Below, in pieces: positions 1 through 47,280 of a stretch of 47,280 nucleotides of DNA. The notes below the pieces were generated by a model that ran no database searches, had not been told where the DNA came from, and saw only the letters and a list, made by a program, of their open reading frames with translations. This DNA comes from a virus, in IMG/VR virus record IMGVR_UViG_3300043654_000013, positions 1 through 47,280 of that record; one strand, written 5' to 3'. A program made the position numbers and the translations under genes. Positions within the stretch are counted from its first letter, which is position 1. Each line of letters opens with the position of its first letter.

Positions 1-115
1 TCCTGTTGTTCCTCCTCCATTGAGCTGCGACGTCGGGAGGGACGACGTCGTAGTTAGCTGAAATATGCGCCGGCGGCGGCCACTGCACCTCCGGCGGCCA
101 GACAAACGTCGCCAT
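1..115 (-). CDS. 5' part of Pro/Gly-rich late protein (cut by window edge)
   Basis: The ATG at 115-113 overlaps the stop of the Ig-like gene by one base (TGATG). The 38 visible residues start MATFVWPPEVQWPPP and are identical to the start of the complete copy at 46562-47242. The gene is interrupted only by the linear ends of the window and is not a separate gene if the genome is circular. Confidence 0.75.
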   Translation of the reverse strand, partial: MATFVWPPEVQWPPPAHISANYDVVPPDVAAQWRRNNR

Positions 116-153
116 CACGTCACCGCAATGACATTGCTGGTCGCCGTCGCCGA
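1..153. repeat. Left copy of 153-bp terminal direct repeat
   Basis: Bases 1-153 match 47128-47280 except at 127 (A/G) and 130 (G/A). Both copies hold the last codons of the Ig-like gene and the first 38 codons of the Pro/Gly-rich gene on the minus strand. Joining the copies makes the late operon continuous, so this is probably the overlap of a circular or permuted genome. Both differences are at third codon positions and leave Val-Ile unchanged, which argues for two real alleles over random error. Confidence 0.9.
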
Positions 154-7777: not shown

Positions 7778-8000
7778 AAACCCTGCCGAGCTTGTTGATC
7801 TCCCTGTCGATGTCCTCGACCGTGAGCCGCTCGGGGTCGAAAATTCCATCTGCGTCCTCTTGCTCCCGTTGCTCTTTCGATCGACCGCCGATCGCGCCAA
7901 CTAGTTCTAATGCTGTACGAATCGCCGCTGAGCGAACGTTGGCGGGGACACCTGGAGCGTCGATTAGTACAGACAGCGCGTGTTCTGCCTTCAGCCTCAA
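7776..8000 (-). CDS. Small helical protein, possible terminase small-subunit fragment
   Basis: 74 aa from a TTG at 8000 that overlaps the upstream stop as TTGA. The sequence (HALSVLIDAPGVPANVRSAAIRTALELVGAIGG, end DREINKLGRV) is helical, like the C-terminal oligomerisation region of some small terminases, but this is weak. The same frame stays open to ATG 8210; that extension would overlap the HGG protein by over 200 bp and has lower third-position GC, so the short form is preferred. Confidence 0.5.
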   Translation of the reverse strand: MRLKAEHALSVLIDAPGVPANVRSAAIRTALELVGAIGGRSKEQREQEDADGIFDPERLTVEDIDREINKLGRV

Positions 8001-8461
8001 GCGTCGATAACGCTTATTTGTCTCATCAGCGGAGCCCAGGATTGCGTCTGCCAAGCCCGCGTCATCTTCTTGCGCGTCCAGTCGTTCGCCCGCCGATAGA
8101 CCAGCATCTGCATCAACTCGTGCGTCGGCATTGGCGATCGCCCTTCGGCCATCGCCACCCGCGCCGCCGCGCTTCGCCCGCTTGGCTGGAGCTTTCCTTG
8201 TCTGCCCCATATCCAAAAACCTCCATGCGCTCCGCAAACCTTCATGCCCTTAAACGCCAGCATGCCGCATGCCGTCCCGTCGCGCTTCGTCGCCTCGCAC
8301 TTCCGATGATTAGCTCGACCTGGCTGAAACTGCGTCCGCTTTCCCGCCTCAAGAAACGCCGCCGGAGCCGTCTTGCGCCCGCCCCACGGTTTTGTTCTTT
8401 TCCGCATGCGGCCCCTTTTCGATGCTCTCCAAGTCTCTCGTGTGAAAAACTCATCAGACAT
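7997..8461 (-). CDS. HGG-motif zinc-binding phage protein
   Basis: 154 aa from ATG 8461, which has a GGAAGGGAG sequence at suitable spacing. The core reads KCEATKRDGTACGMLAFKGM, then VCGAHGG, a Cys/His/HGG pattern widespread in phage and prophage proteins close to packaging genes, where it probably binds one zinc. The N-terminus is very basic. It is the first gene of the second minus-strand block, directly below the AT-rich control region. Function is unknown; DNA binding or a packaging-related role is possible. Confidence 0.7.
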   Translation of the reverse strand: MSDEFFTRETWRASKRGRMRKRTKPWGGRKTAPAAFLEAGKRTQFQPGRANHRKCEATKRDGTACGMLAFKGMKVCGAHGGFWIWGRQGKLQPSGRSAAARVAMAEGRSPMPTHELMQMLVYRRANDWTRKKMTRAWQTQSWAPLMRQISVIDA

Positions 8462-8709
8462 TAAAGTCTCACTCCCTTCCACGACACAACTACAAAAATA
8501 CACACTTTTCTCTACCTACCCCGTATTACCCCCCTATTATTCTCTCCCTCTATGTACATCCCTCTCTCTACTATAATACCACACAACACACATAGTTGTG
8601 TATATTGTGTATATTTCTCTAGTAACTCATTGATCCTAAAGTGAGACTTAAATTACACAAGTCAGCACACAACTCGTTTTTGCTACAGATCCTTTGTATA
8701 TTTAACAGC
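8462..8709. promoter_or_regulatory. AT-rich control region with repeated half-sites
   Basis: About 250 bp, far richer in A/T and pyrimidine tracts than the rest of the genome, lying between the PEP-CTERM gene and the HGG gene. ACACAAC occurs at 8484-8490, 8581-8587 and 8667-8673, and its complement GTTGTGT at 8595-8601 makes a 21-bp palindrome with the second copy. AAGTCTCACT (8464-8473) and AGTGAGACTT (8640-8649) form a 10-bp inverted repeat. It likely holds the promoter and operators of the downstream minus-strand block. No open frame is convincing here; an origin function cannot be excluded. Confidence 0.55.
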
Positions 8710-8746
8710 GGGAGGATGGCATTCGGGGGTTGAACGCCATCCTCCC
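8710..8746 (-). terminator. Hairpin downstream of the PEP-CTERM gene
   Basis: Perfect 11-bp arms GGGAGGATGGC (8710-8720) and GCCATCCTCCC (8736-8746) with a 15-nt loop, 46 nt after the stop of the PEP-CTERM gene. On the minus strand it is followed by an AT-rich run but not a clean T-tract. A second bulged hairpin lies at about 8749-8782. Terminator function is inferred from position. Confidence 0.6.
8722..8738. repeat. Imperfect direct repeat flanking the PEP-CTERM gene, left copy
   Basis: TTCGGGGGTTGAACGCC here matches TTCGGGGGGTTCGAACGCC at 9634-9652, differing only by two single-base gaps. The two lie on either side of the PEP-CTERM gene in the same orientation. They may be traces of how the gene was acquired, or just related hairpin loops. 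Confidence 0.4.
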
Positions 8747-8792
8747 TAAGCGATCGGCGGAAGGCTGAGCCGACCGGTCGCTGTTCACAACT

Positions 8793-9515
8793 TCAAGCGG
8801 CGAACCGCGGCGACCTCGTCTTGCGCATGCCGGCGAATGCCAAAAACCCGAAACCAAGCGCCATCATCGCCCACGTCGACGGTTCTGGCACCGCGCTCGA
8901 CGTCATCGCCTGGTTAAAGCCGGTGACTGAGCCGCCAGCCAGCAAAGTGAGCGATGCGTCTTCGGTCATCGAGAACGGCAGGCCCGACACAAAACCCGTC
9001 GTTCTCGACCCCGAGAAGCTGTCAGGGTCGGTGAGCGGCGCTCCGCTGACCGTCTCCAACAGCGTGCCGGGCGTGTTGAGCGGATTAGCCCCTTGCGCGT
9101 CGGCGGGATCGGCGAAAAACTCCAAAGTCGACAGGCCAGCGCCGACATTGGAGTTAAAAGTGAGCGAGGCGCTCGACTCGATGCTCGCGACCGGGGGCGC
9201 GAAGCCAGTGTCGCTGGCGATGAAGGTCAGCGTGCCTTCAGCCGACCCCAGGTTCTCGATGTTCGACGTCGAGAGCTGCAGCACGTTATGCGAGCCGAAC
9301 GTCGATTGTGTCAGCGTCGTCTGGACGAAAAAGCCGCCGACATTGGTGTCGACCGTGAGCAGGTTCTTGGCTCCGCCGCTCAAGTCGCAGCTCAACTCGC
9401 CATCGGCGCAAGTGAACGTCGACGCGCCATTGGTGATGGTGAGCTGCAGATTGGCGTGCGCCGCGCCCGCCGTCAGCGCCAGCGCCCCCGCCGAGGCCAG
9501 AAATCGCTTAAGCAT
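8793..9515 (-). CDS. PEP-CTERM sorting-domain surface protein (moron)
   Basis: 240 aa. Residues 1-22 form a signal peptide (MLKRFLASAGALALTAGAAHA). The middle is a Ser/Thr/Gly-rich beta domain with two cysteines near residue 40. The C-terminus is a textbook PEP-CTERM signal: VPEP at about 209-212, a hydrophobic helix (WAMMALGFGFLAFAG) and a basic tail (MRKTRSPRFAA). In bacteria such proteins are cut by exosortase (EpsH/XrtA) and sent to the envelope, often with exopolysaccharide. ATG 9515 has AAGGA upstream and gives the signal peptide; the frame continues to 9566 without support. The gene stands alone between hairpins at 8710-8746 and 9585-9613, so it should have its own promoter. It is most likely a lysogenic-conversion gene; its effect is unknown. 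Confidence 0.85.
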   Translation of the reverse strand: MLKRFLASAGALALTAGAAHANLQLTITNGASTFTCADGELSCDLSGGAKNLLTVDTNVGGFFVQTTLTQSTFGSHNVLQLSTSNIENLGSAEGTLTFIASDTGFAPPVASIESSASLTFNSNVGAGLSTLEFFADPADAQGANPLNTPGTLLETVSGAPLTDPDSFSGSRTTGFVSGLPFSMTEDASLTLLAGGSVTGFNQAMTSSAVPEPSTWAMMALGFGFLAFAGMRKTRSPRFAA

Positions 9516-9584
9516 GATGTGTGATCCTTCCGTTGAAAGTGTCGGGTGTCGCTCGACCCCGCCCAACTCTCATCTTGCACAAAA
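9516..9584 (-). promoter_or_regulatory. Probable promoter segment of the PEP-CTERM gene
   Basis: An upstream terminator on the same strand at 9585-9613 implies that transcription of the PEP-CTERM gene starts in these 69 bp. They contain AAGGATC as ribosome-binding site. No convincing -35/-10 pair is visible by eye, so the exact promoter is open. Confidence 0.35.
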
Positions 9585-9613
9585 CCGGAGCGGCGGTAAT
9601 GCCACCGCTCCGG
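9585..9613 (-). terminator. Rho-independent terminator of the repressor-side operon
   Basis: Arms CCGGAGCGG (9585-9593) and CCGCTCCGG (9605-9613), 9 bp perfect, with GG/CC pairing continued inside the loop. On the minus strand the stem is followed directly by TTTT. It ends the run of small genes that begins with the repressor at 14004 and separates it from the PEP-CTERM gene. Confidence 0.75.
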
Positions 9614-9631
9614 CCTCTCAGCCGGACCTTT

Positions 9632-9652
9632 CGTTCGGGGGGTTCGAACGCC
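9632..9652. repeat. Small hairpin and right copy of flanking repeat
   Basis: CGTTCG (9632-9637) pairs with CGAACG (9645-9650). The segment 9634-9652 is the right partner of the repeat at 8722-8738. The intergenic stretch 9653-9692 holds nothing else recognisable. Confidence 0.4.
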
Positions 9653-13292: not shown

Positions 13293-13511
13293 TCATCGCG
13301 CCAAGCCAAATATCGTCCTGCGCTCAACCCCGTTGATTGCTTGGACTAGGTCAAAAGTCTCGAAACCGCTCGTGAGCCAGACGTCGGCCAGGATCGAGGC
13401 TAGCACCAGCGCCACCGCCGGTCCGGCTTCGTCCCATGCGTCCCCCAAGCCCGGCAGCACATGCGCTTGGATGGCGACGTAGGCCCGATCGATTTCGCTA
13501 TTGTCACCCAT
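13293..13511 (-). CDS. Hypothetical small protein
   Basis: 72 aa from ATG 13511, overlapping the repressor stop by 8 nt (ATGGGTGA). Mostly helical and hydrophobic (AVALVLASILADVWLTSGFE). Coupled directly to the repressor, so probably expressed with it. Not recognised. Confidence 0.6.
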   Translation of the reverse strand: MGDNSEIDRAYVAIQAHVLPGLGDAWDEAGPAVALVLASILADVWLTSGFETFDLVQAINGVERRTIFGLAR

Positions 13512-14004
13512 CGTCTCCATCCCTTTGTGCTCTAGGCGGCTTGATCGCCGCCCGCTTTTGGTCGGCCTTGATCAGGAGGCCGATGATCTCATGCGCGATG
13601 TCGTCCGGCAGGTAGCGTGCGGCCTGAAAGAACGACATCCCGACTTCACCGTGCGGTTTGGTGACCGACCAATCGGCGGTGACGCCATGCGCCGCCTTCA
13701 TCTCCGCTTCCGGCGCTAGTTCGCTGACTTTCACCTTGAGCGCCTTGGCCAGCCTCTGCAGGTTCTCCCGGTCGGGAAAATTCTTGCCCGCGACCCAGAC
13801 CGAAATCCGGTCGCGGCCCTTAGCGACGTTCTTGCCTTCGGAACTTTTGTGTCGGCCCCAGATGCTGGCGGCCAATTCCGATTGTGATAGTTCTTGCTCC
13901 GACATCAGTTTCCTGAGTCGCTTGGCGAATTTGACATCTCTCATGCGCTCGATTGGCAGTCGCGCTCCTGTGATGCGCGGCGACTGGTTGATGGTTTTGG
14001 ACAC
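13504..14004 (-). CDS. XRE-family repressor
   Basis: 166 aa from GTG 14004. Residues about 22-100 hold an HTH domain with FAKRLRKLMSEQELSQSELA, then a long insert (KGRDRISVWVAGKNFPDREN) and LQRLAKALKVKVSELAP. The C-terminal part is helical and lacks a LexA-type Ser-Lys protease site. Family members act as phage CI/Cro-type repressors. It diverges from the replication operon across a 280-bp region that contains a near-consensus promoter for it and several possible operators, the classical layout of a lysogeny switch. Confidence 0.82.
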   Translation of the reverse strand: MSKTINQSPRITGARLPIERMRDVKFAKRLRKLMSEQELSQSELAASIWGRHKSSEGKNVAKGRDRISVWVAGKNFPDRENLQRLAKALKVKVSELAPEAEMKAAHGVTADWSVTKPHGEVGMSFFQAARYLPDDIAHEIIGLLIKADQKRAAIKPPRAQRDGDDG

Positions 14005-25024: not shown

Positions 25025-25171
25025 CTAGGGTTGGGTGTTGGCTTTGATATGTCTACGCTTTTCGGTCAAGTCGTTGAAATATCTGGCCGCAGGGTGGAGT
25101 TGGGTGTTGCGTTATGTTGCACAACATCCTATGTAGTGGCTTCGTTCTGGTGGATAGGATAGGTGGATAGA

Positions 25172-26389
25172 ATGTTCAAACCCTCTGACGTGATGAAGCT
25201 GCCGGAAGGCAAGCACTGCGACGGCGACTACCTCTGGCTTGCGGTCAAAGGCGCGAGTCGATCGTGGGTCGTGCGCACCCCGATGATCAACGGCAAGCGC
25301 CGCGAGATCGGGCTCGGCTCAGCCGCCAAGATTTCGCTGGCGCTGGCGCGCAAGGGGCGTGACGCGCTCCTCGAACAATTGCGCAACGGCGTCGACCCGG
25401 TCGCCGAGCGCCAGGAGGCCAAAGAGGCCGCTGCCAAGCGCAAGACTTTCGCGGAAGCCGCCGAGGCGGTGATCGAGAAAAACCGCGCCGGCTGGAAAAC
25501 CTCGCTTGAGGGCCGATGCTCGACGCTCGATCAATGGCGTCGCGACGCCGAGATCACCTGCAAGCCGATCGCGCGCAAGTTTCTCGACGAGATCACCATC
25601 GCCGACGTCAAGGGTGTGATCCAGCCTTACTGGGAGCGGGAGCAGCTCGACAGCGCCCGGTCGCTGCAGAAGCGCATCGAGGCGATCTTCGATTACGCGA
25701 CCGCGCACGGCTGGCGCTCGGGCGACAACCCGGCCTCGTGGAACATCTTCAAGCATCTGTGGCCGAGCGAGAAGACGCAGGACGTGCATCACGCCGCCTT
25801 GCCCTGGCGTGACGCGCCGGCGTTCCTGCAGCGCCTGCGCCAGTCGGATGCGACCAGCGCTCGCCTGCTTGAGTTCATCATGCTGACCGCCGTCCGCTCA
25901 AACGAGGCGCGCGGCGCGACCTGGTCGGAGATCGACCTGGAGGCCCGCGTGTGGACGATCCCGGCGACGCGGATGAAGATGAACCGCGACCACGACGTGC
26001 CGCTCAGCGACCAGGCTGTCGCCCTCTTGCGCCGGATGGAAGCCGAGAAGACCGACAGCATGTTCGTGTTCGTCGGCGGACGCGGCGTCGATGCGAAGGC
26101 GGCTGGCAAGCCGATGCGCAACGCCAGTCTCTGGATGCTGATGCAGCGCGCCGGCGGCGAGGCGACCACGCATGGCTTCCGCTCGACCTTCCGCGATTGG
26201 TGCGGCGAAACCGGCGTCGATCGCGAGCTGGCCGAACGCTGCATCGCTCACAAGGTTGGCAGCGACGCCGAGAACGCTTACGCCCGCTCCAGCCTGATCG
26301 CCCGTCGCCGGCCGATCATGGAAGCCTGGGGCGCGTTCGTCGACGGCGCTCGCGACAACGTGCTGCCGTTCGAGAGAGTGGCGGCGTGA
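25172..26389 (+). CDS. int: Tyrosine integrase
   Basis: 405 aa of the P4-like tyrosine recombinase type: an N-terminal DUF4102-like arm-binding domain (about 1-85, GDYLWLAVKGASRSWVVR), a core-binding helical domain (about 90-190), and the catalytic domain with Arg242 (TAVRSNEARG), His334-x-x-Arg337 (THGFRSTF), His360 and the nucleophile Tyr370 (NAYARSS). All catalytic residues are present. It would insert the phage at a host attachment site and, with the excisionase-like protein, remove it. ATG 25172 has AGGTGG upstream; the GTG at 25163 lies within that signal. Confidence 0.95.
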   Translation: MFKPSDVMKLPEGKHCDGDYLWLAVKGASRSWVVRTPMINGKRREIGLGSAAKISLALARKGRDALLEQLRNGVDPVAERQEAKEAAAKRKTFAEAAEAVIEKNRAGWKTSLEGRCSTLDQWRRDAEITCKPIARKFLDEITIADVKGVIQPYWEREQLDSARSLQKRIEAIFDYATAHGWRSGDNPASWNIFKHLWPSEKTQDVHHAALPWRDAPAFLQRLRQSDATSARLLEFIMLTAVRSNEARGATWSEIDLEARVWTIPATRMKMNRDHDVPLSDQAVALLRRMEAEKTDSMFVFVGGRGVDAKAAGKPMRNASLWMLMQRAGGEATTHGFRSTFRDWCGETGVDRELAERCIAHKVGSDAENAYARSSLIARRRPIMEAWGAFVDGARDNVLPFERVAA

Positions 26390-39189: not shown

Positions 39190-40299
39190 CTATTTGATCT
39201 CAATCACAAGGGAGGAGTTGCGCTGAGTAGCGACCATCTGCCCGGTTGACGTGATCGACTTGTACAGGACGAACTGATTCGCCGGCCGCGCCGGCGTGTG
39301 GTCCTTCCGCCACTCGTCGGTCATCTGCACCAGGAAGATTTTCTTCGGGTCGAACCAATAGCACCGCTTCGATAGGCCGAGGTCGTCGAGGCTCGGGTCG
39401 TACTGGAAGTCCGTGCCCATGTACCTCAACTGGCCAACGCTGATATCGCGCGAATTTGAGAAGCCTTGCATCGAGTAGTTGCCGTTGGCCCGCACTTCAA
39501 CCTCCATCGCGCCGATGAAGTCCGAGCCACAGAGAGCCATGGTGGGTTTCCCACCATAGCGGATGAGCTGGCGATATTCGGTCTGCAGCATCGAAATCAG
39601 CGCCCCGCCGTCAGCCGGGTCGGAAGTGATCGAATCGCCGCCATGGACGCCAAGCGCCGGCGTGCCGCCGACCTTAATGCCAAACGCCGTGGTGCGGGCT
39701 CGATTGCGCCACCAGGAATTATTGGCGAGCGATTGATCGAGACCGCCGACGACGCCAACCGAGGGGTCGGCCGAGATCAAGAAGCGGATGCCGGCGAGCG
39801 CCTTGGGATCGGTGGTCCCGTCGCCCCATAGCAAACCATTCATGCCACGGGCGTATTGCTCCCCCAGTTCGAACAACTTGTCTTGGAATAAATTCACCAA
39901 GACTGTCTCGTCGCGATCCGTGTGCTCGGTGGTGTTCTCACCATTCGTATCGACTACGCTTATTCCATCCATTTTCAATTCGGTATGGGTAAGCGTCAAG
40001 CCTAAATGATGTTCCCTCCAAGGATAGTTGCCACGAACAATGTTCGCCGGAGTAAAAAATCCGACGGTATCATTGTGGGTATAGCCTTTAACGACGTCAT
40101 TACCTGAACCGTCGCCGAATTGACCATGCAGCGCAACACTAATGTTGCCCTTGCCGCCTGGGAATTTCTTTGGCTCACTTTCCGCCCACTTCAGAAGCGG
40201 CTTATCTTGCAGGGTCTGAAAGAATTCTTCTGGCCGGCCCCAGTAATAATCGAGCGCGGCATTCGCGATATTGGTGATTTCTCCAGCCGTAAAGGCCAT
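39190..40299 (-). CDS. Major capsid protein
   Basis: 369 aa, no low complexity, strongly structured. The start MAFTAGEITNIANAALDYYW, middle YTHNDTVGFFTPANIVRGNY, LHGQFGDGSGNDV and the C-terminal RNSSLVIEIK are like major capsid proteins of podoviruses of alphaproteobacteria. Position after the scaffold gene and before a strong hairpin supports a highly expressed coat protein, presumably HK97 fold. GGAGC precedes the ATG at 10 nt. Confidence 0.85.
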   Translation of the reverse strand: MAFTAGEITNIANAALDYYWGRPEEFFQTLQDKPLLKWAESEPKKFPGGKGNISVALHGQFGDGSGNDVVKGYTHNDTVGFFTPANIVRGNYPWREHHLGLTLTHTELKMDGISVVDTNGENTTEHTDRDETVLVNLFQDKLFELGEQYARGMNGLLWGDGTTDPKALAGIRFLISADPSVGVVGGLDQSLANNSWWRNRARTTAFGIKVGGTPALGVHGGDSITSDPADGGALISMLQTEYRQLIRYGGKPTMALCGSDFIGAMEVEVRANGNYSMQGFSNSRDISVGQLRYMGTDFQYDPSLDDLGLSKRCYWFDPKKIFLVQMTDEWRKDHTPARPANQFVLYKSITSTGQMVATQRNSSLVIEIK

Positions 40300-41741: not shown

Positions 41742-44240
41742 TCAATGCGTCGGCCCGGTTAACCGGCCCATGCCGGGAGTTGGGGTCGCCGGACCTGATT
41801 GAGGACCGGGCGTCGGCGGCGGGAAGCTGCCGCCTGGGCGCGGGTTCTGCGGCGCATTCTGGTCGCCGGCCGGCCCCTGCATCTGCGGCGACTTCGCGCC
41901 AGCGCCGGGACTGGGCGCGGCCATCTGACCTGGCGGCGCTGGACCGCCTGCGCCGCCACCGCCGCCGCGCGCCATCGTGTTCATCGCCACGATCGAGGGC
42001 AGCGGCGACTTGAACGCTTGCGTCAAGTCGAGCTTGTCATCGAGGCGGTGCAGGAGATCGCGCGCCAGGAACTCGGGGTCGATGCCAGGGATCTGCATCA
42101 CCAAGGGGTAAATCTTCTGCGCGTTGGCGATCTCTTGCGCCTGGTTCGGGTTGCCCGAGCTGCCGGCCTCGATCTCCAGCCAAACCTCTTCAGCGATCTG
42201 CTGCCGGGTCAGATCCGGCCACACTGCGCCCGGCCCGACGATGCGCTTCACAGTGGCTTCGGCCACGTTCGAAAACAGGAGCTGGCCGCCGTATTTGGCG
42301 AGATGGGTCAGGAGGTCGTCGAGATCGTCGACGTTCGAATCGTTGGTCGTGGTGCGCGAAGCCTCGCCAATCTGCGATTCGGTCGCGGTGCCTCCGGCGG
42401 TGCCCCCAAGGTTAGCCTCTTGGAAGCCGACCACCCGCAGCGTGTCCTCGAAATAGGGCGCGACGTCATAGAGCGCCGGATTGATCTCCGGCCCGGTGAA
42501 GGCTTGCAACAGCTCCTGCACCTTCTGCCCTGGCTGCAGTCCGTTGATTTCAAGAATAGCGTTCGCAGGATGCGATTCGAGCTTCTCGATGTCTTCCTGG
42601 TCAAGCGCGCCAGCGACAACCACCGTCTTGGGGCGAGCGGCTCGGCGATGTTCGCGCATGCCTTGCCGAGCGGTGTTGTAGTCGGTCTGCATATCCTTCA
42701 TCAGCCGGACGTCGGACGGCGGGAAAATATCGTCCTCGTGATCAGTCTCGTTGAAGGTCAGCGCGAACCAGGGCCAGAAGCGCTCAAGCGGCGTGTCAGG
42801 CCCGGCCGGCTCGCGCAAGAAATCCATGTAACCATCGCAGACGATGTACACGAGCCCGTCTTTGCGATTGTAAATCTCCCAGATGCAACAGCATTGCTTG
42901 TCGTCGCCGGTGCCTTTTTCTTTTTCATTCGGCCCGAGCGACATCAGATAATTCGCTCGCGCGCTGGCGCTCATACCGCTGTCTGGCCGGCTATACGAAA
43001 CATAAGACTTGCCGACGTCGATCGAGTAAATCTCTTTCACTTCGTTGGGGCTAAGAATGTATTCCTGCGCCACCCAATCGGAGCCAAGGAAGCCACGCAG
43101 ATGAATGCACTTCGTGTCGGGGATGATCGAGAACGAGCTGGGGTAATCGTACGTCAGGCCCTCGTGAGCGATGAACTCCTGCTGGCCCTGCAGATCCTGT
43201 ATCATCAAGCGCAATTGTTCGGCTTCAGCGCTATCCGGGTCACTCTCGTTGTCGGCGATATCTGCTGCGAGACGTTCGAGAGTCCCGAGGCGCTCATTGA
43301 TGTCCGATAGCTTGGCGATCACGTCGGGGCGCTTCTGCATCACCCGCTCGAAACCGAGCTTGACGTAGGCGACGCCGACCGTCAGCGCGCGCCGCACCGT
43401 CATCTTCATCAGTTGCTTGAAGGGATGTAACTGTTGCGCGACCTGGTATGCGTAGAGCAGCTCCAGGGTCTTGGCGATTTTGTCGAGCAGGTCGGTCTGC
43501 TGTTTGACCTGGCTGGCGTCCTGGATAATCGCCATGCCCTGCTGCAGCATCTGCCCCATCATCGGGTTGGGCGGCGGCATGCCTGGTGGGCCAACACCCA
43601 ACCCCGGCGGCATGCCTGGAGGCGCGCCAGGAAGCCCAGGAGGCCCCGGAGGCCCCGGAGGGGCTCCAGTAGACCCGACAGGCCCCGGCGGCATCCCTGG
43701 CGGTCCTGGGGGCACGGCGGGGGCTCCAGCGCCCGGCGGCGCGCCTGGCGGGGCTGGCGGACCGATCGTCTGGCCGGCGAGCTGGCCCGACTGCAGCAGC
43801 ATCTGGCCCGATTCCTGGATCGCCTGCAGGGTCTGCTCGGTGCCGTCCCAGACCGTATTGAGTATCATCTCGCGCCGGCGGGCGACCGCTTTAGGATTAC
43901 GGGCATAGAGAAAACTAACCCTTTGGGTCACCTCGCGCAGGGTGATGTTGGCGACGTAGCGCTTCTCTTTCGGGTTCTTCGACCATTGCTTGCCAAGACA
44001 AAAATCCTGGTCCTCCCTCATTCGTTCGAAGGCCGGCTTCCAGTGTTTCTTGGCATGCTTGACTTCCGCCGCCCAAGCTCTGACCAGCGCCTTGCGTTGC
44101 TGCGGCGGCTGCGGCGGGTCGCGCTCGATCATCTTGGCGTCGGCTTCGCCCTGGCCGATGATCTGCTGACCCGAAACACCCTGCGGCGTGCCGAACAGAG
44201 CCTCGACCGCCGCTTGGTTCGGATCTTGAGGACCAGGCAT
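41742..44240 (-). CDS. Portal protein with collagen-like insert
   Basis: 832 aa. Residues 45-145 and 228-790 match podovirus portals (FCLGKQWSKNPKEKRYVANI, RALTVGVAYVKLGFERVMQK, WPWFALTFNETDHEDDIFPP, DMQTDYNTARQGMREHRRAA). The portal ring is the DNA entry channel and terminase docking site. Residues about 160-226 are an insertion of Gly-Pro-Pro and Gly-x-Pro repeats, collagen-like; the last 60 residues are also Pro/Gly-rich. The start is coupled to the zinc-ribbon gene (TGATG). Confidence 0.88.
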   Translation of the reverse strand: MPGPQDPNQAAVEALFGTPQGVSGQQIIGQGEADAKMIERDPPQPPQQRKALVRAWAAEVKHAKKHWKPAFERMREDQDFCLGKQWSKNPKEKRYVANITLREVTQRVSFLYARNPKAVARRREMILNTVWDGTEQTLQAIQESGQMLLQSGQLAGQTIGPPAPPGAPPGAGAPAVPPGPPGMPPGPVGSTGAPPGPPGPPGLPGAPPGMPPGLGVGPPGMPPPNPMMGQMLQQGMAIIQDASQVKQQTDLLDKIAKTLELLYAYQVAQQLHPFKQLMKMTVRRALTVGVAYVKLGFERVMQKRPDVIAKLSDINERLGTLERLAADIADNESDPDSAEAEQLRLMIQDLQGQQEFIAHEGLTYDYPSSFSIIPDTKCIHLRGFLGSDWVAQEYILSPNEVKEIYSIDVGKSYVSYSRPDSGMSASARANYLMSLGPNEKEKGTGDDKQCCCIWEIYNRKDGLVYIVCDGYMDFLREPAGPDTPLERFWPWFALTFNETDHEDDIFPPSDVRLMKDMQTDYNTARQGMREHRRAARPKTVVVAGALDQEDIEKLESHPANAILEINGLQPGQKVQELLQAFTGPEINPALYDVAPYFEDTLRVVGFQEANLGGTAGGTATESQIGEASRTTTNDSNVDDLDDLLTHLAKYGGQLLFSNVAEATVKRIVGPGAVWPDLTRQQIAEEVWLEIEAGSSGNPNQAQEIANAQKIYPLVMQIPGIDPEFLARDLLHRLDDKLDLTQAFKSPLPSIVAMNTMARGGGGGAGGPAPPGQMAAPSPGAGAKSPQMQGPAGDQNAPQNPRPGGSFPPPTPGPQSGPATPTPGMGRLTGPTH

Positions 44241-44392
44241 CAGATCACCCTCGCCGGCGCGTAATGTTTAACCCGACCGCACTCCCGGCATTGCCAGCCA
44301 ATCCAAATCACGCCGTCGTGCGTCCCCGAAACGACGCTGCCACCACACCAACCAAATCGGCATTTCAAACCGTGAAAGAAACGGCGGATCAT
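44240..44392 (-). CDS. Small zinc-ribbon protein between terminase and portal
   Basis: 50 aa, start MIRRFFHGLKCRFGWCGGSV, with Cys11, Cys16, Cys35 and Cys38. Its ATG shares a base with the terminase stop and its stop shares a base with the portal start, so all three are translated in a chain. It is a paralogue of the protein at 5161-5322 (25 of 40 residues identical from the first Cys). Position suggests a packaging-linked role; DNA binding is possible. Confidence 0.8.
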   Translation of the reverse strand: MIRRFFHGLKCRFGWCGGSVVSGTHDGVIWIGWQCRECGRVKHYAPARVI

Positions 44393-45957
44393 CACCAGCC
44401 ATCCATTGCGGCGCGCGCTTCACGTTCGGCGCGCTTCGTGTTTTCCTTCACCCAGCCGAGGGTGAACTCTTTCGGGTGATCGTTCCGCACCTTCGGTTGC
44501 CCCCGCGCCGGAATCTGCTTCATCAGGCCAAGCCCGATCAGCGACAGCGCGTCGACAAAATCATCAAAACCACTATGCGGGAATTTTAGCAATTGATCGC
44601 GGGCGTCATGAAACCACCGCGGAAACCGGGGAAAGTAGACCCGACCCATGTTCATCCGCGCCGAGATCGACTGGGCGCGCGCTTGCTTGTCGGCGATCGG
44701 CGCGATCTCGTCGATCGAGCACCACACCCGGCGCTCCAGCATGCGCTTGCGCAAGAACGGCCCGATCGACTTCGAGATGCCGCCCTTCTCGCCCCACCAC
44801 AGCATCGGCTTATATTTCGCCATCAGACCGATCATCGCCTCGATCGATTGATCGGACGGCAAACGCCCCCAGACAATGTCGGGCATGATCCAGATGTTGT
44901 CGTGCTCGTCGACCCCGACCACCAGGTGAACAGTCTTGTCGTTGTCCTGGCCGGTCGACACCGCGAGATCCGATGCGCCGTAATAGCGCAGGCTGTCGGG
45001 ATGCGGCAGCTCGGACATTTTGTTGTAGGTGCGAATAAAGTCGATCTTGAAAAACGAGCCTTCCGCCGGCGTCGGTCGACCCTGATAGAGGGCGCTGAAG
45101 CCGCGTGCGTCGGCGCGACGCTGATCGAGCAGAAACGCAGACCCGAACCGGCTCGGCCAAAGCGGCGCATCAATCGGCCGGCCGAGCGGATCATCCTCTT
45201 CGGCCAACGCCGGCAGGTTGATGATCGACCAGGTCGCCGCCTCGTCCTCGTTGTAATAGGGATTGGTCGGGTCGGTGTGACGACCAATGATGTCGTCCTC
45301 GTTCCAGCGCGTGGCGATGATCACCAGCGCCGCGTCCTGGGTCATCATGCGATAGCGCAGGACGTTGTTGTACCAGGCCCAAAGCGCCTCACGCACGATC
45401 GGCGAGTCGGCCTCTTTGCGGTTCTTCACCGGGTCGTCGAGGATGTTGATGTCGCCGCCGCGGCCGGTCAGCGTGCCGCCGACGCCGACGAAAAACATAT
45501 CGCCGCCATCGACAATGCGCAGCCGATCGTTGGCCGCGCCGCCATAGCGCAGCTCCAGCTTCGGAAAGACATGCTGGTAGAGCGGCGATTGCATCGTCGT
45601 CTTGACGACGCCGCCGACGTCCTGGGCGAATTTGTCGTTGTAGGTGGCGAAGACGATCGACCTACGTGGATTGCGGCCGACCGCCCAAGTCGGGAACAGC
45701 ATCGAAGCAAGCTTGGTCTTGCCGTGCCGCGGCGGACACGAGATCATCAACCGCTTGATCCGACCCGCCTCGACCTCTTCCAGCGCCGCCCCGATCACCC
45801 GATGGTGGCGCGCCACTTCATAGGACGAGCACAGAGCATCGACCCGGTGGTCCGGGTCGGGGCTCATGTAGCGCGCGAACGGAATCAGGCTCACGCGCGA
45901 TTTGAGGATCTCCTTTTTCCGGTCGAGAAGAAGGAGCCGGCGATCGGCGGTGTTCAA
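44392..45957 (-). CDS. terL: Terminase large subunit
   Basis: 521 aa from a TTG overlapping the upstream stop (TTGA). ATPase: Walker A CPPRHGKT (74-81), Walker B INILDDP (170-176), coupling motif IATRWNEDD (214-222). RNase H-like nuclease: Asp330 (GASDLAVS) and Asp469 (FDDFVDALSL). It powers DNA packaging and cuts the concatemer. It belongs to the PRHGKT-type terminases common in prophages, fitting a headful mechanism, though the ends cannot be told from sequence alone. Confidence 0.93.
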   Translation of the reverse strand: MNTADRRLLLLDRKKEILKSRVSLIPFARYMSPDPDHRVDALCSSYEVARHHRVIGAALEEVEAGRIKRLMISCPPRHGKTKLASMLFPTWAVGRNPRRSIVFATYNDKFAQDVGGVVKTTMQSPLYQHVFPKLELRYGGAANDRLRIVDGGDMFFVGVGGTLTGRGGDINILDDPVKNRKEADSPIVREALWAWYNNVLRYRMMTQDAALVIIATRWNEDDIIGRHTDPTNPYYNEDEAATWSIINLPALAEEDDPLGRPIDAPLWPSRFGSAFLLDQRRADARGFSALYQGRPTPAEGSFFKIDFIRTYNKMSELPHPDSLRYYGASDLAVSTGQDNDKTVHLVVGVDEHDNIWIMPDIVWGRLPSDQSIEAMIGLMAKYKPMLWWGEKGGISKSIGPFLRKRMLERRVWCSIDEIAPIADKQARAQSISARMNMGRVYFPRFPRWFHDARDQLLKFPHSGFDDFVDALSLIGLGLMKQIPARGQPKVRNDHPKEFTLGWVKENTKRAEREARAAMDGW

Positions 45958-46561: not shown

Positions 46562-47242
46562 TTACCTCTTCGGTTGGGGAACCGGCGGGCTCGGCGGCAG
46601 ACCCTGGCCCGGCTGCGGGGGCCGCCCAGGCCGGCCAGGCAGACCCTGGTCCGGCTCGCCCTCGCCGCGCTCCGGCACGGTCAGAACGACATAACGAGAC
46701 CCGACGCCGCTGATGAACACCGCGACCAGCACCTTGCCGGGCTCGACGCTGGGCGGCAGCGGCGGCCAAACCGTACCCGGAGGCGGGTCGATCGGCGGCA
46801 GCGGCTGACCAGCAATCGGCGGCAGACCGTGCTCAGGACCAAGCGGCCAGATCGGCAACTGACCCACTCCGCCACCACCGCCTTCGTCAACGCCGTAGTC
46901 AGGGTCGGTCGGACGACCAGGGTGCGGCAAGCCATGGCCAGGACGCTCACCCGGCCGCCAGCCGCCCCACTCGGGGCGAGATGGCAGATGCCCCGGGCGA
47001 CCACCGCCGCCCGGCAAACCCTGATCGGGGTAGCCGGGAGCGCCACCCTCATCAACACCGTAACCAGGGTCGACAGGGCGACCCTGGGCATCAAGAAACT
47101 GAACCCAAGCAAGGGGCATTGATCTTCTCCTGTTGTTCCTCCTCCATTGAGCTGCGACGTCGGGAGGGACGACGTCGTAGTTAGCTGAAATATGCGCCGG
47201 CGGCGGCCACTGCACCTCCGGCGGCCAGACAAACGTCGCCAT
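46562..47242 (-). CDS. Pro/Gly-rich late protein
   Basis: 226 aa from ATG 47242, coupled by TGATG to the Ig-like gene. After a structured start (MATFVWPPEVQWPPPAHISA) an internal ATG at 47119 has its own AGGAG, so a second shorter product starting MPLAWVQFLDAQGRPVD may be made. Most of the rest is PDQGLPG-like and GYGVDEGG repeats, with one structured stretch VLVAVFISGVGSRYVVLTV. Proteins of this kind are frequent near packaging genes in phages of Rhizobiales. Function unknown. Confidence 0.65.
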   Translation of the reverse strand: MATFVWPPEVQWPPPAHISANYDVVPPDVAAQWRRNNRRRSMPLAWVQFLDAQGRPVDPGYGVDEGGAPGYPDQGLPGGGGRPGHLPSRPEWGGWRPGERPGHGLPHPGRPTDPDYGVDEGGGGGVGQLPIWPLGPEHGLPPIAGQPLPPIDPPPGTVWPPLPPSVEPGKVLVAVFISGVGSRYVVLTVPERGEGEPDQGLPGRPGRPPQPGQGLPPSPPVPQPKR

Positions 47243-47280
47243 CACGTCACCGCGATAACATTGCTGGTCGCCGTCGCCGA
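47128..47280. repeat. Right copy of 153-bp terminal direct repeat
   Basis: Same 153 bp as the window start, with GTT ATC in place of GTC ATT codons of the Ig-like gene end (read on the minus strand). It completes the join that makes the genome circular or terminally redundant. Confidence 0.9.

Follow-up and report, generated by a model that had tools for sequence, protein, structure and literature searches.

Phage morons and lysogenic-conversion genes that affect the envelope include lom and bor of phage lambda. Phage T5 encodes the superinfection-exclusion lipoprotein Llp (PMC9586334). In Gram-negative bacteria, the PEP-CTERM/exosortase system (EpsH/XrtA) acts on proteins that carry a signal peptide, a PEP motif, a membrane helix and a basic end (Haft 2006, PMC1569441), and chromosomal PEP-CTERM proteins tie cells to exopolysaccharide, as reported for PepA (PMC9850573) and in work on a Nostoc exosortase (PMC12188702). 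TIGR03118-type proteins, which have a putative exosortase interaction domain, have been counted among the gene transfers on Yellowstone viral contigs (PMC11003980). The preliminary description of the DNA analysed here held that PEP-CTERM proteins have no described role in phages. This agrees with the literature searched (subscription journals and preprints being outside its scope), which contained no study on phage PEP-CTERM proteins and described no exosortase-substrate family known only from viruses. Here we describe soil phages that carry a family of proteins predicted to be exported, with the bacterial PEP-CTERM signal, and apparently using the exosortase of the infected cell.

The window, meaning the whole stretch of DNA analysed (47,280 nucleotides; IMG/VR record IMGVR_UViG_3300043654_000013), is an essentially complete, circularly permuted phage genome of ~47.1 kb, since its ends overlap, with positions 1..153 repeating 47128-47280 at 151/153 identity. 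On the minus strand it encodes a terminase large subunit (44392..45957), a portal protein (41742..44240) and a major capsid protein (39190..40299), the last of which was used for the kinship and host searches. Other genes encode tail fibres, a family-A-like DNA polymerase, a primase, a helicase, a RuvC-like resolvase, an exonuclease and an M15 peptidase. The phage is probably temperate, because its genes include a Cro/CI-type HTH repressor (13504..14004, minus strand) and a tyrosine integrase (phrog_1; 25163..26389, plus strand), respectively 80% and 88% identical in a sister phage. Among named phages, the nearest are Microcystis phage Mae-Yong1326-1 (capsid 58%, terminase 51%), in whose annotation there is no PEP-CTERM gene, and Rhizobium phage RHph_N65 (capsid 40%). 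Although Mae-Yong1326-1 (OP028995, L312) is the closest named relative, the other capsid relatives found in genomes are from Rhizobiales, and its stated host may merit checking.

The PEP-CTERM gene, P0001, occupies 8793..9515 on the minus strand, starts with an ATG at 9515 and encodes 240 amino acids. The signal peptide, VPEP box, membrane helix and basic tail originally ascribed to this product are all present. Signal peptides, in P0001 as in its family, were recognized by sequence inspection as a hydrophobic N-terminus with an AxA site. The protein begins MLKRFLASAGALALTAGAAHA, and residues 1-21 (9453..9515) form a predicted signal peptide that would be cleaved between AHA and NLQL, at a site without a lipobox cysteine. 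The ectodomain (residues 22-208; 8892..9452) is a predicted beta-sandwich of ~11 strands with invariant C36 and C43. The sorting tail (8796..8891), comprising a VPEPSTW motif, a membrane helix (212-232) and a basic end, closes the protein with SAVPEPSTWAMMALGFGFLAFAGMRKTRSPRFAA. Among 53 aligned family members, A19 and A21 of the signal peptide and P210 and E211 of the PEP motif are invariant. Scored against curated models, the tail exceeds the cut-offs of Pfam PF07589 (30.9 bits against 20.7) and TIGR02595 (20.4 bits against 16) and falls slightly short of that of the PEPxxWA-CTERM model NF035944 (32.3 against 35). A six-frame PEP-CTERM search gave a single match in the window record (E 9.9e-10) and zero in 14 control genomes. 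P0001 is confirmed as a genuine PEP-CTERM protein encoded by a genuine phage genome, and its export and exosortase tag are predicted from sequence features.

An AlphaFold2 model of P0001 (pLDDT 83) consists of a beta-sandwich flanked by an N-terminal (2-14) and a C-terminal (212-232) helix. Its matches in a structure search include Bdellovibrio Bd1399, carbohydrate-binding modules (CBM61, CBM6) and phage tail-fibre domains; since these are generic beta-sandwiches with TM-scores <0.5, they say nothing about a bound partner. A profile search of solved structures returned nothing significant, PHROGs contained no family for P0001 and PADLOC gave no match to a known defence or anti-defence family.

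The gene had also been described as isolated from its neighbours by an upstream terminator and a downstream hairpin, and the upstream half of this claim stands. A hairpin with 12-nt arms (9585-9596 and 9602-9613; -30.1 kcal/mol), followed by TTTTGT on the gene strand (minus), looks like an intrinsic terminator that would stop transcription ahead of P0001. The strong downstream hairpin on the same strand (15-nt arms, 8710-8724 and 8732-8746; -30.5 kcal/mol) is not a canonical intrinsic terminator, because the gene strand has no T-tract there. A search directly upstream of P0001 in the window found no sigma-70-like promoter. The downstream neighbour (7997..8503, minus strand; 168 aa) has no Pfam match and adjoins the PEP-CTERM gene in the sister phage (L099/G721) and in contig L117, from a third phage that keeps this gene pair. 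The AT-rich intergenic stretch at 8440-8700 (GC 37.5% against 62.5% overall) contains ACACAAC/GTTGTGT inverted repeats and is a possible promoter or operator region ahead of the tail-side genes.

The sister phage (G721; 3300045240_000091), which comes from a different metagenome, is collinear with the window over almost the whole genome and carries, at the same position and beside the same downstream gene, a PEP-CTERM protein 64% identical to P0001. An assembly chimera, a concern of the preliminary description, is rejected on the strength of this collinear sister and of the overlapping window ends. It is hardly credible that the gene is an artefact or a host gene, whether from a chimera or from the chromosomal flank of a provirus. 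PEP-CTERM proteins elsewhere are chromosomal, and IMG/VR records with several copies (e.g. L024, 5 copies) may contain host DNA, but such an origin would need one error common to both assemblies and is at variance with a complete, circularly permuted window genome and with the 64 viral loci, described below, for which no chromosomal relative was found. Between the two phages, identity is 86-93% for terminase, capsid, polymerase and integrase and 44-67% for tail fibres. The lower identity of the PEP-CTERM protein relative to the core genes would be as expected of an exposed protein; against this argument, the rapid divergence of other genes, the tail fibres for example, could have unrelated causes.

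Searches with the tail removed place the P0001 ectodomain in a family of 64 IMG/VR loci from ~40 metagenomes. No relative was found among 84,980 species genomes of bacteria and archaea, an absence that is not absolute as the scan used degenerate exact matching with patterns slightly longer than in the viral scan. Ectodomain profiles, run with no positive control, likewise found none in two sets of genomes (296 and 199) from families that include exosortase-positive members, and tblastn gave no match among cultured phages and plasmids, including the collection that holds Mae-Yong1326-1. A search with the tail alone found plasmid PEP-CTERM proteins and zero phage proteins in INPHARED, the plasmid matches thereby providing a positive control for the negative result. 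Of 63 loci inspected for their tails, the 3' end is intact in 62, every one of which retains the signal peptide, ectodomain and sorting tail (53 PEP, 5 PEA, 4 PET). With a median pairwise dN/dS of 0.41 over whole genes and 0.44 over the tail, both the protein and its tail are under purifying selection.

Several further features of these loci were observed. Two P0001-cluster genes stand in tandem in L092, L096, L102, L104, L110, L112, L119 and L133, which suggests duplication or two specificities. Proline-rich proteins with PDQGLP and IWPP repeats, for which no Pfam or PHROG match was found, are encoded beside or close to PEP-CTERM genes across many unrelated phages (window 46562-47245, minus strand; L110:9590-10174; G028:12221-12760) and form clusters c2 (31/64 loci) and cl5. 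In L026-L028 (three records) and L014, PEP-CTERM genes lie near endolysin, baseplate or terminase genes; these records appear to derive from isolate genomes, and cultured lysogens may exist.

The family occupies at least five genomic settings: between terminase and portal genes, between the same two genes but on the opposite strand, after a helicase gene, between tail fibre and endolysin genes, and at the early/late junction of the window. It behaves as a mobile accessory gene, as its initial designation as a moron implied, and P0001 is very probably a moron whose product is an exported exosortase substrate. In 4/60 family genes the upstream region contains a sigma-70-like site that matches at 10 or more of 12 positions, against 0.25 expected in shuffled sequence (11/12 in L103 and L120; L075 and L076 are near-copies of each other), so at least some copies can probably be transcribed independently. 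The co-occurrence with integrases that had been suggested as a check is seen in the window phage, but a tyrosine integrase is detectable in only 8/32 long family contigs; the family is therefore not confined to recognisably temperate phages. Many members lie inside late head-gene operons. In window-type phages the gene is >10 kb from the capsid gene, making a check of the capsid neighbourhood uninformative for them. Given the few integrases and the late head-operon positions, expression in the lytic phase is no less likely than expression from a prophage for the head-operon members.

These head-operon copies might be late lytic helpers, acting on the envelope at lysis or release or shielding progeny from debris, with no role in the lysogen. 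Such a function would suit the copies within the head operon, which lie on its strand with portal-side genes on one flank and capsid genes on the other, and the many members near terminase, portal or endolysin genes. It is nevertheless improbable: other members lie on the strand opposite to the late operon, L103, L120 and L075 have a strong sigma-70-like promoter of their own, and, in the clade of phages considered next, five members, together with every phage outside it, are without the gene and presumably lyse normally.

That clade belongs to a second phage group. Phages G008, G015, G028 and G030, with ~90% capsid identity, encode other PEP-CTERM proteins at one shared head-operon location. 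Across 80 capsid relatives, the slot between the two flanking head genes spans about 200-350 bp if empty and 840-2100 bp if occupied; an occupied slot thus contains, as is characteristic of morons, an insertion separating phage genes that lie side by side in relatives. A sorting-tail protein is present in 33/80 phages, drawn from three unrelated ectodomain families with 12, 11 and 10 members. The tail is of PEP type in 32/33; L163 has VPGPVVGAGLPGV instead. At this locus (L163:1308-2229), an ectodomain of the same family as in PEP-CTERM neighbours is joined to the different tail VPGPVVGAGLPGVIVGCGFLVLLAMTRRK, perhaps another sorting signal. In the capsid tree all 33 fall within one clade of 38 (33/38 against 0/42 outside; Fisher p 1.6e-17, uncorrected for kinship), and ectodomain labels change 13 times on the tree against a minimum of 3. 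The tag type is retained while the ectodomain is exchanged. HNH endonuclease genes fill the same slot in L146, L178, L207 and L212.

The head-gene location in this group could also be taken to mean that the protein is a virion component, displayed on the particle and not on the cell. This is most improbable, as the signal peptide and membrane tail of all complete members would direct the protein out of the cytoplasm, the site of virion assembly, and more than half of the 80 phages have no such protein in the slot. With roughly equal chances of being right or wrong, it is proposed that phages of exosortase-positive bacteria use the host sorting machine as a general display platform, keeping the tail and swapping unrelated ectodomains in a fixed slot, and so diversify surface proteins for phage-phage competition.

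Display of this kind would rely on the host. The preliminary description had stated that the phage encodes no exosortase, and a search of 34 viral records, the window among them, found none. Window-type capsids occur in Rhizobiales genomes (two named matches and 5/397 sampled genomes), all of them only distant relatives of the window phage. Exosortases are uncommon in this order, being present in 21/397 sampled genomes, with 8 strong XrtA-like matches. PEP-CTERM matches were found in 10/397 genomes, 4 among the 8 XrtA-like and 6 among the other 389 (Fisher p 1.4e-5). Because PEP-CTERM proteins track XrtA in Rhizobiales, the host of the window phage is likely exosortase-positive. The genome with the closest capsid among named genomes (Rhizobiales AFS002495, 61%) gave no exosortase and no PEP-CTERM match, which counts against the explanation favoured here.

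According to that explanation, which taken as a whole has about an even chance of being correct, P0001 is an exported moron displayed via the host exosortase, most likely blocking or redirecting the adsorption of other phages. Sec would export the protein, the host's own exosortase would recognise the PEP-CTERM tail and cut near PEP, and the beta-sandwich ectodomain would be handed to the cell surface or exopolysaccharide. Once displayed, the ectodomain would act on competing phages by blocking or redirecting their adsorption and, where expressed late, would also keep the phage's own progeny off doomed cells and debris. The proposal parallels T5 Llp, with the exosortase route replacing the lipid anchor. 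That adsorption blocking is the main role of P0001 is suggested tentatively, its chances falling slightly short of even.

The displayed protein might instead bind exopolysaccharide and alter aggregation, floc or biofilm during lysogeny, like chromosomal PepA. PepA overexpression decreases soluble and increases bound exopolysaccharide (PMC9850573), and adhesion and biofilm formation in Nostoc require an exosortase (PMC12188702). The carbohydrate-binding modules among the fold matches would also suit such a role, as would the weak full-length alignment of one member, L111, to floc_PepA (NF033554; 47.3 bits against a cut-off of 80). However, the L111 match vanishes once the signal peptide and tail are removed, and 0/34 members match floc_PepA with the ectodomain alone; homology to PepA is not established for the protein and is rejected for its ectodomain. 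The finding of three unrelated ectodomains at a single slot position fits competition-driven diversification better than a single fixed matrix role, and most long family contigs lack a tyrosine integrase match. A matrix function is thus considered unlikely, and adsorption blocking is favoured over it because ectodomains are swapped, the protein diverges faster than core genes and such genes are retained across the clade.

On the cell surface, the protein may protect the cell against other phages or alter its slime coat. If the proposed explanation is true, it connects the surface role of exosortase-sorted proteins with envelope change by phages of poorly cultured soil bacteria. PEP-CTERM tails would then also be a usable host marker, since such phages should infect exosortase-positive cells.

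Comparison with described systems shows both shared and distinct features. P0001 has the same four sorting elements as the substrates of the bacterial PEP-CTERM/exosortase system. It differs in being phage-encoded, with no exosortase detected in the phage, in having an ectodomain family undetected in the cellular genomes searched, and in number, with usually one or two such proteins per phage whereas bacteria have many per genome. PepA has the same PEP-CTERM architecture and aligns weakly with L111 over the full-length profile, but L111 scores under the cut-off and ceases to match without its signal peptide and tail (NF033554; PMC9850573). The Yellowstone report likewise places exosortase-tag proteins on viral contigs, but as a one-sentence annotation count and for a different protein family (PMC11003980). 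T5 Llp, like P0001, is a small exported phage protein encoded by an accessory gene, and action of P0001 on adsorption at the cell surface is proposed; Llp is lipid-anchored, whereas P0001 has no lipobox and its anchoring or export would go via the host exosortase, making the analogy a functional one only. As with lom/bor-type morons, the genes are inserted between conserved phage genes, are missing in close relatives and sometimes have a putative promoter or terminator of their own. In contrast to these morons, for which an exosortase sorting tail is not described in the literature searched, the genes here are retained by 33/38 phages of one clade while their ectodomains are swapped. The parts are thus of known kinds, and it is their combination, a virus-specific exosortase-substrate family and a second phage group whose ectodomains are exchanged while the tag stays the same, that appears to be new.
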